Source: Geoglobus sp.
GTDB lineage: Archaea > Halobacteriota > Archaeoglobi > Archaeoglobales > Archaeoglobaceae
Length of the DNA: 41,526 bases
NCBI GenBank assembly: GCA_015522195.1
Contig: WAMS01000098.1
Coordinates: forward strand, 1 to 41,526
Reading direction: 5' to 3'
This document shows, piece after piece, positions 27,359 through 30,990 of the stretch; position 1 is the first letter of the stretch, and every line of letters starts with the position of its first letter. Position numbers and translations under genes: made by a program. The notes beneath the pieces were generated by a model that saw nothing but the letters and a program-made list of their open reading frames with translations, made no database searches and was not told where the DNA came from.

Positions 27359-27724
27359 ATGAAGGCAAAGGTTCTGATAGTTGAGGATGACGAGGCTGTT
27401 CTCGAGACCCTTCAGCTAATGCTTGAAGGTGAATTCAATGTAATTGTTGCCAGAAATGGAGCTGAGGCTGTCAACATCTTTGAATTTGTAAAACCTGATG
27501 TGGTTTTGATGGATATTTTTCTTCCCGAAATGGATGGGGTTCAGGCTACAAAGGAGATTCTGAAAAAAGATCCCAATGCGATTGTAATCGGAATCACCGC
27601 CTATGCAAGAAGAAGAGGGAGGGATCTGATTGAGGCAGGAGCAAGAGAATTGCTTGAAAAGCCTTTCGGAAGAAAGCTTGTTATTGATACAATTCAGAAA
27701 TATCTGAAAGATCAGAACCGTTGA
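27359..27724 (+). CDS. stand-alone response regulator receiver domain
   Basis: VLIVEDDEAVLETLQLML, PDVVLMDIFLPEMDGV, GITAYA, LEKPFG. Confidence 0.94.
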   Translation: MKAKVLIVEDDEAVLETLQLMLEGEFNVIVARNGAEAVNIFEFVKPDVVLMDIFLPEMDGVQATKEILKKDPNAIVIGITAYARRRGRDLIEAGARELLEKPFGRKLVIDTIQKYLKDQNR

Positions 27725-27764: not shown

Positions 27765-30700
27765 ATGATTCCTGTTTCATACGAAAACCTCTGCCCCTCA
27801 TGCGGTTCATCTCTGCTGGAAAATGAACTTCAGAGTGGGATCTGTGATAAAACCGGAAGGGGGCTGTGTTCTCATGAGATCGACGATGTATTTAGTGAAT
27901 TTTCTGAGTTCTTCAGAATGAGTGTTGGAGAGCTGAGAGCATTGCAGAAATTCTGGGGAAGAAGAATACTGGAAGGTGAAAGCTTTACAGCAGTTGCTCC
28001 TACAGGAATTGGAAAAACAACGTTTGGCATTGCAATGGCACTTTTTCTGGCAAAAAAGAAAAAGAGATCATACCTGATATTTCCAACAACCGTTTTGATC
28101 AAACAAACTGTTGAAAGGCTTTCCGAGTTTTCCAAAAGATCCGGAATAAGGGTCAGCTTTAACAGAAACGATGGAGACGTTGTCGTGGCTTACTACTTCA
28201 GTGGGATGAAAAAAAAAGGAAGTTGATGAATTTTACAGTATTCTGTCTTCTGAAAGGTATCACATTCTGGTTACAACCTCAGCATTTCTCTCAAAAAATT
28301 TTGACAGAATAGGCGGCAGGTTCAGCTTTGTATTTGTCGATGATGTGGATGCGGTGTTGAAAGCATCCAGAAATGTTGACAGAATTCTTCAGCTTATCGG
28401 TTTCAAAAAGATAAATGGAAAATGGACAGGAAAGGCAGATGGCGTTCTGATGGTTTCAACAGCAACAGGAAAACCGGGCATAAAGGCAAAGCTCTTCAGA
28501 AAGCTTCTTGGATTTGATGTTGGAGCCAGAACAGTTTTTGTGAGGAATATTTATGACATATATGTCAGGGACTCGGGAATTGGGTCTCTGAAACAGATTC
28601 TAAGTGAAATGGGACCGGGAGGCTTGGTATATGCCGGATCATCTGAAAGAGCTTCTGAAATTTTTCATGCTCTTGAAGGTGAGTTTAAAATCGGACATGT
28701 TTCGGGTAAATCAAAAAAAGATGTTGAGAGGTTTGAAAGTGGTGAAATCGACTATCTGGTAGGTACGTCACACTACTACAGCTCCATAGTGAGGGGGCTT
28801 GATCTTCCTGAAAGAATAAGGTACGTGGTTTTTCTTAAAGCACCGGTTTTCAGGGTGAAATTTGATGAAGTGAAAAAACTGAAATCCGGTTATCTTAAAA
28901 TGCTTGCCATAGTATTCAGAGATGATGAAAAAGTTAAAAAATACCTCCCCCATCTCGACAGCCTTTCCAGCAGAGAATTTGAGAAATTAAAAGCCATCTT
29001 AATAAATAAAATCGAGCATGGAGATTTTGAAGGTAGAAGAAGAGATGTGGTGGTGAGAAAAGGAGAGATTGTGTTTCCCGACATGAGAACATACATTCAG
29101 GGTTCTGGAAGAGCATCGAGGCTTTTTGCTGGCGGAATAACCAAAGGAGCATCTTTTCTGCTTGAAGATGATCCTGAAATACTTGATGCATTTATCGAAA
29201 GATCCAGAATATTTGACATAGAATTCAGAGATATCAACCAGGTGGATACTGTTTCTCTGATCAAAGAAATTGATAAGAGCAGAATTGAGCTGAAAAAGAA
29301 AGATTTTGTGGAAGATGTCGTAAAACCAACACTCTTTATTGTGGAAAGCCCCACAAAGGCAAGACAGATTGCCAGATTTTTTGGGAGAGCAAGCGTTAAG
29401 GTTCTGAAGGATGGCAGCAATGTTTTTCTCGCCTATGAGGTTCCAGCAGAAAACAGAGTGCTGATTATAACCGCAAGTTTCGGACATCTGACTGATCTGA
29501 TAACAGGAAAAGGCTTCCATGGAATCCAGACTGGTGATGCAATACGGCCCATCTATTCCTCCATAAAAAAATGCAGAAAATGCGGCTATCAGTTTACGGA
29601 AGAAAGGACGAGATGTATCAGGTGTGGAGGGGAGGATATAGATGATTCCAAGAGCAGAATAAAGATCATCAGAAAACTGGCGAGAGAAACGGGGAATGTG
29701 ATCATAGGAACGGATCCCGATGCCGAGGGTGAAAAGATTGCATGGGACATAGCAAACCTTCTGAAAGGATGTGGAGATATAAAGAGGGCGGAGTTTCACG
29801 AGATCACACAGAAGGCCGTGATAAATGCTCTTAACAGTCTGAGAGATATTGATGAGAATCTTGTGAAGGCCCAGATGATAAGAAGGATTGAAGACAGGTG
29901 GATAGGTTTCGTTCTCAGTCAGAAACTCTGGGAGATTTTTGGCAGCAAAAATCTGTCTGCAGGAAGAGCTCAAACACCTGTGCTGGGATGGGTGATAGAG
30001 AGTGCCGAAAAAAACAGAAAAAAGAGAAAAATAGCTTACATTCCGGAATTAGATCTCTACATTGAGGACGTGGAAAACGGGGAAATCGAAATTGAGGTTG
30101 AGCTCGTGAACAGCAGAAAGGATACCAGAGCTCCGTTGCCACCCCACACAACAGATACGATGCTCAGGGATGCCGGTACAATTCTGAAATTACCAGTCAG
30201 AGAAACAATGGATCTTGCTCAGGACCTCTTTGAGAGCGGTCTGATTACCTATCACAGAACCGATTCCACAACCGTCAGTGAAGCAGGGATGAAAATAGCA
30301 AGAGAATATCTCCAGGAGGATTTCTATGGGCGAAAATGGCAAGGTGAAGGAGCTCACGAATGCATCAGACCAACAAGATCTTTTGACAGGTATGATGTCC
30401 AGAGAATGATCCATGAAGGCCTGATTCATGCTGAAAACATAACCTGGAAACATCTTTCTCTGTATGACCTTATCTTCAGGAGGTTCATGGCGAGTCAGGC
30501 ACATAATCTCGTCGTTGACGTGAGAGAATACCGCATAAAGGTTAAAGACAAACTGATTAGGGAGGAAAGGGTGGTGAAGGCAACAGGCAGGGCCTATGAT
30601 CTTTATAAATCAGTCCATGTTAAATGTGAAATTCCAGAAGGAAGGCACAGATTTAAGGCAAAAATACTCAGAATCCCTGAGGCTCCGCTGCTTACCCAGT

Positions 30701-30990
30701 CGGATCTTGTGTCAATGATGAGGGAAAGAGGCATAGGAAGGCCTTCCACATACTCAACCATTGTTGAAAAGCTCTTTGAAAGGAAATATATCATCCAGAA
30801 GTCAGGAAAGCTGATTCCAACTGGAACAGGAAAGAGAATTTACAGCTATCTCGTTTCCAGCTACGGTGAATTTGTATCGGAGGAGAGAACCAGAATCATT
30901 GAGCAAATAATGAATCAGATTGAAAGGGGAGAAGCGGATTATTCGGAAACTCTGAAGGATCTTTACAGTGAGATAAGGAAAATTCTGTGA
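27765..30990 (+). pseudogene. rgy: reverse gyrase, in-frame product interrupted by one extra A at an A9 run (ORFs 27765..28226 and 28345..30990)
   Basis: N-terminal Zn finger CPSCGSS...GRGLC, Walker A APTGIGKTT; continuation DDVDAVLKASRNVD; topoisomerase I half FIVESPTKARQIARFFG, LSAGRAQTPVLG, SGLITYHRTDSTTVS. Removing one A at 28209-28217 gives one 1074-aa ORF. Confidence 0.95.

Follow-up and report, generated by a model that had tools for sequence, protein, structure and literature searches.

The window analyzed here (the whole stretch of DNA, 41,526 nt) is contig C98 of a draft Geoglobus genome (G000; 1.65 Mb, 149 contigs, 92% complete, 44% G+C). It carries the sole copy in that assembly of reverse gyrase, the best marker of extreme thermophily, and the gene is distributed over two reading frames (Table 1). 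The earlier note had placed the split at a run of nine A residues (A9), and the frames themselves confirm this. Because of the TGA at 28207–28209, the second frame opens only at 28210, and the two frames therefore share only 17 bases, within which, in or just after A9, the frame change must lie. The upstream ORF terminates with SGMKKKGS. The second half had been described as an ORF starting at 28345; that ORF is in the correct frame, but the frame already opens at the run, and 28345 is the position of its first start codon (GTG). The GC3 values on the two sides of the run are equal (0.405 before and 0.410 after). A9 is the single A9/T9 run in the window, and at least one A9 occurred in 75 of 100 shuffles of the window composition, indicating that a lone A9 is unremarkable by chance.

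Table 1. Features of the reverse gyrase locus in the window.
Feature	Position	Strand	Remarks
Response-regulator gene directly upstream of reverse gyrase	27359..27724	+	ORF
Reverse gyrase, N-terminal fragment	27765..28226	+	153 aa; Zn finger, Walker A; stop right after A9
A9 run, where the frame changes	28209..28217	+	eight As fit the protein alignment
Sole overlap of the two open frames	28210..28226	+	break confined to here
Reverse gyrase, remainder in the next frame	28210..30990	+	Walker B, other helicase motifs, Toprim, topoisomerase I domain, YHRTD active site

The effect of the run length on the product was simulated. A run of eight As gives a protein of 1074 aa and one of eleven As a protein of 1075 aa, whereas A7, A9, and A10 lead to products of 181, 153, and 182 aa, respectively. 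The length of 1074 aa proposed for a gene with one A fewer is thus exact, but that change is not the only one restoring the frame, since two additional As also serve. A peptide crossing the run in the full-length product would span KKKEVDEFYSILSSER.

The N-terminal piece matches residues 1–129 of chain B of 1GL9, the reverse gyrase of Archaeoglobus fulgidus, with an E value of 2e-39, in agreement with the Zn finger and Walker A motif previously assigned to it. By itself, the downstream frame reaches 1026 bits with TIGR01054 (cut-off, 471.7). The two frames combined contain the Zn fingers and the motifs GIGKT, VDDVDA, STAT, ESPTKA, DPDAEG, and YHRTD. Counting both frames, the architecture is that of TIGR01054, with an N-terminal SF2-type helicase followed by a type IA topoisomerase including Toprim and the catalytic tyrosine. 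The two ORFs together make up a single reverse gyrase gene. The domain order, Zn fingers, Walker A and B motifs, Toprim, and YHRTD motif are like those of the A. fulgidus enzyme (PDB 1GL9/1GKU). The window gene differs from that enzyme, and lacks the continuous reading frame of its intact relatives, in that it lies in two frames joined, at the length fitting the alignment, only by skipping one base of A9. TopA, the second type IA topoisomerase, is absent from the G000 assembly and present in the relatives searched; at 92% completeness its absence may be a gap.

The corresponding site was compared among related genomes. The congeners carry YYHNNLKKKEKENFF (L002), HYHGKMKKSEKESFF and YYHGKMKKSEKESFF (L003 and L004, respectively), YYHGNLPKQEKEEFF (L005), and YYHGGMKKAEKEKFH (L006) at this position. 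With eight As, the window gene reads YYFSGMKKKEVDEFY and aligns without a gap to the congeners at the site, its KKKE lying opposite the KKKE of L002, which is encoded by AAG AAA AAG GAA. The run at the site is AAGAAAAAG in L002 and A7 in L003 and L004, these being the nearest relatives, and the site is therefore lysine-rich and prone to runs. A9 was found at the site in none of the relatives examined. A single frame passes over the site in all 28 relatives whose sequences cover it, and the 29th locus (L030) ends with its contig. The GTDB set comprises 80 reverse gyrase loci, derived partly from the same genomes as the 29 relatives' loci; 69 of them are open in one frame over 1000 aa or more, and 11 reach a contig end. 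No frameshift was found at the site among the homologs examined. Shortened reverse gyrase frames, such as those of L030 and L214, were considered as possible frameshifts and rejected because they are due to contig ends. An exact search of viral contigs with 22 bases of the site gave no match to a second copy.

The reverse gyrase gene of the window is not decaying, as the earlier note had judged from the intact motifs of both halves. The window protein retains 312 of 329 near-invariant columns, its terminal branch (0.48) is comparable to that of the intact sister L002 (0.43), its identity to the G002 protein (64%) ranks at the 57th percentile among 423 genes, and GC3, as given above, does not differ between the two sides of the run. 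Eight of the 255 columns invariant in all other sequences are changed, the third highest number among 30; this mild excess is the sole sign pointing toward decay. A decayed pseudogene would show several lesions or relaxed constraint, and the window gene shows one lesion and typical divergence. Since a very young lesion leaves no trace of this kind, the constraint test excludes an old pseudogene and is equally compatible with an artefact and a young mutation.

A 1.05-Mb sample of G000 was surveyed for frameshifts by comparison with 0.8 Mb of the congener G002, the alignments covering about 149,000 aa. The longest runs in the sampled 1.05 Mb are of nine bases. The reading frame continues through 98 A/T7 and 16 A/T8 runs, and two further coding A9 runs (L033 and L034) appear correct, with the frame kept. 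Among non-transposon genes, the only clear single-lesion breaks are that of reverse gyrase at A9 and one at an A8 run. The latter, likewise one A too long, is located at L090:10323-10340 (G000:C57) on the minus strand, in a small conserved gene that has weak similarity to NMD3 and is uninterrupted in nearly all of the Archaeoglobaceae searched. The other breaks in the sample are an IS transposase (L074), a gene in L042 broken at several places, and a weak pair in L039. Of the A7 runs flagged by ORF length, those inspected turned out to be gene ends or shadow frames, and many frame pairs obtained by tblastn were shadow ORFs or transposases; both were discarded. In both clear breaks a long A run is one A too long, the signature of slippage acting on run length; such a process fits replication, library amplification, and base calling alike. 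Long runs are also scarce in coding sequence: in the sampled 1.05 Mb, five coding A9 runs were seen against 15.9 expected, no T9 against 6.8, and no A run of at least ten against 8.9 (for A and T together, none against about 12). The depletion of runs of at least nine A/T suggests that selection or mutation has acted against slippery runs in this archaeon.

We consider it very probable that the break is a non-programmed insertion of a single A, arising either as a consensus error or as a young mutation. For the frame of the relatives the run should hold eight As, and it carries one extra. Slippage on the run during library amplification, base calling, or assembly would leave the gene of the cell whole, while slippage during replication would yield a young mutation and hence a null or leaky allele. 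Should the DNA indeed contain A9, transcripts with A8 or A11 could still give a minor share of full-length protein, in an accidental and unregulated manner. We infer that the insertion originated by slippage and that it is without function. The three explanations put forward in the earlier note (sequencing error, fresh mutation, and slippage) are the right ones to weigh, and the first two of them appear roughly equal in likelihood.

The consensus error, under which the genomic run is A8 and the surplus A was introduced by library amplification, base calling, or assembly, falls somewhat short of an even chance. The assembly is a draft in 149 contigs at 92% completeness, another break by one additional A occurs at an A run of the same draft, and neither half of the gene shows relaxed constraint. 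The authors of GeneTack expected isolated frameshift singletons supported by BLASTp to be mostly sequencing errors (PMC3711429), and in Sulfolobus solfataricus such a frameshift disappeared on resequencing, the supposedly interrupted gene being full-length (PMC8211752). The survey, however, points to a low error rate at runs: the A/T7 and A/T8 runs crossed in frame and the two correct coding A9 runs mean that A9 runs can be in frame and that runs of up to eight are nearly all right. There is thus no gross homopolymer problem in the assembly, which weakens the case for an artefact.

A genuine young frameshift, giving a null or leaky allele and perhaps marking the beginning of the loss of the enzyme from the lineage, likewise falls somewhat short of an even chance. 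The A-rich site is a natural hotspot for indels, and a truly decayed reverse gyrase exists at the syntenic place in the congener G005 (96% complete, 9% contaminated). The remnant lies on the minus strand of L252 at about 1779–1351 (G005:C13, about 2812–2385). Its 5′ part consists of the N-terminal Zn finger with in-frame stops and a degenerate P-loop region, and its 3′ part of DFVFVDGIDAV...KILQ fused directly to the last 30 or so reverse gyrase codons, large internal deletions having occurred. A similar response-regulator gene precedes reverse gyrase in the window and the remnant in G005, and thus serves as a synteny marker. The remnant points to genuine loss of the enzyme in this genus. Furthermore, no reverse gyrase above the family cut-off was found in G019 and G037, both 99% complete, one belonging to the family and the other to the order. 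Mutants of Thermococcus kodakarensis and Pyrococcus furiosus that have lost the enzyme are viable, their growth being completely inhibited only at about 95 °C (PMC11946384). Natural loss in a thermophile lineage is also seen in Thermus thermophilus, in which the HB27 copy is a pseudogene and the HB8 copy is intact (PMC1274311); the HB27 copy is truncated, in contrast to the single base change in the window gene. The decay in G005, the absence from G019 and G037, and the viability of the loss mutants make a genuine loss allele in G000 credible.

The composition of the proteome weighs against the young mutation. The IVYWREL fraction is 0.443 in G000 and 0.441 in G002, so that the predicted growth temperature is unchanged. 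By the Zeldovich formula, the value of G000 corresponds to about 80 °C; the proteome still looks hot-adapted, with growth probably near this temperature. Loss of reverse gyrase should be costly at about 80 °C, which weakens the case for a mutation. Moreover, no other type IA topoisomerase is found in the assembly, although this may be a gap at 92% completeness.

Productive transcriptional slippage, in which A8 or A11 transcripts would be made from A9 at a useful and maintained rate to express the gene, was given more weight in the earlier note than the comparison allows, and we regard it as improbable. Both halves of the gene are intact, and the run has the length of about nine or more A/T associated with programmed slippage; nine As are long enough for a bacterial RNA polymerase to slip (PMC5009743, PMC1088944). 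Coding A9 runs are depleted and the bacterial polymerase slips on nine As, and slipping on the present run is therefore plausible. Long runs are depleted in coding sequence of G000, and Baranov et al. took such depletion as the mark of slippery runs; mutation, however, explains it equally well. A programmed event would show a conserved run together with the frame disruption, but neither A9 nor a frameshifted gene is present at the site in any relative, where the nearest runs are AAGAAAAAG or A7, and restoration of the frame requires the loss of one A or the gain of two. The second break by one additional A in the same draft likewise points to an ordinary process acting on run length.

Comparison with known systems leads in the same direction. 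The dnaX gene of T. thermophilus resembles the window gene in having a coding run of nine As with a stop soon after it in one frame. In dnaX, however, the unshifted frame gives the full-length product and the short product is functional, whereas the window gene, read without a shift, yields a dead fragment without Walker B and all downstream parts. In dnaX slippage, the best-documented case at A9, As are mostly gained, one more frequently than two, and the addition of one A, the commonest product in Thermus, would lead here to a dead end of 182 aa; the window gene needs a change of −1 or +2. Nor is the run in the window gene conserved, another difference from dnaX. Insect endosymbionts offer another likeness, as they rescue frameshifted but otherwise intact genes at long A runs by slippage, 12–50% of transcripts being corrected (PMC5009743). 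The endosymbiont genomes are very AT-rich, whereas G000 has 44% G+C and five A9 runs in 1.65 Mb. In the accessible part of the literature on slippage, no archaeal example of productive transcriptional slippage was found, the documented archaeal case, fucA1 of S. solfataricus, being a −1 ribosomal shift at an A-rich slippery site (PMC8211752). No paper joining Geoglobus with reverse gyrase was found in the literature searched, and, judged on titles and abstracts, none of those pairing reverse gyrase with frameshifting was relevant. The strong form of the idea, that A9 is fixed in the species and reverse gyrase is made solely through slippage of the polymerase, is quite improbable. A reverse gyrase expressed by slippage would be notable, and slippage would then set the dose of the enzyme across temperatures or on the way to its loss.

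A programmed +1 shift of the ribosome, in which the last tRNA-Lys would slip from AAA onto AAG, is highly improbable. Such re-pairing is possible in principle, and fucA1 shows that archaeal ribosomes can shift (PMC8211752), but the well-studied shifts at A runs, fucA1 included, are −1 rather than +1. At the window site, the downstream sequence forms no stable stimulatory fold (28218–28300, z 0.46), the A site holds no stop at the slip, and the site is not conserved; no strong internal Shine-Dalgarno sequence was noticed by eye at 28190–28208. Least probable of all is a natural two-subunit reverse gyrase with separately started halves as in Nanoarchaeum equitans and Methanopyrus kandleri (PMC8185306), since the split falls inside one RecA-like domain, away from the helicase/topoisomerase boundary, and the GTG at 28345 is placed inside Walker B (VDDVDA) or immediately behind it, leaving neither half able to form the helicase site; two separately translated, folded subunits are not what the locus encodes.

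The evidence, then, favors an ordinary insertion of one base in a draft assembly, and this archaeon should be annotated with neither an absent nor a split reverse gyrase. The decayed copy at the same place in the congener is the more useful lead, since loss of the enzyme could then be tested inside one genus. The frameshift survey also revealed an oxidoreductase gene, presumably a sulfide:quinone reductase, at L042:1823-2824 (G000:C8). It was rejected as a parallel to the reverse gyrase gene because it is broken at several places and is a true pseudogene. Compared with G002, its last third is 92% identical and the remainder 60–73%, a pattern that suggests a recombination patch or uneven decay.
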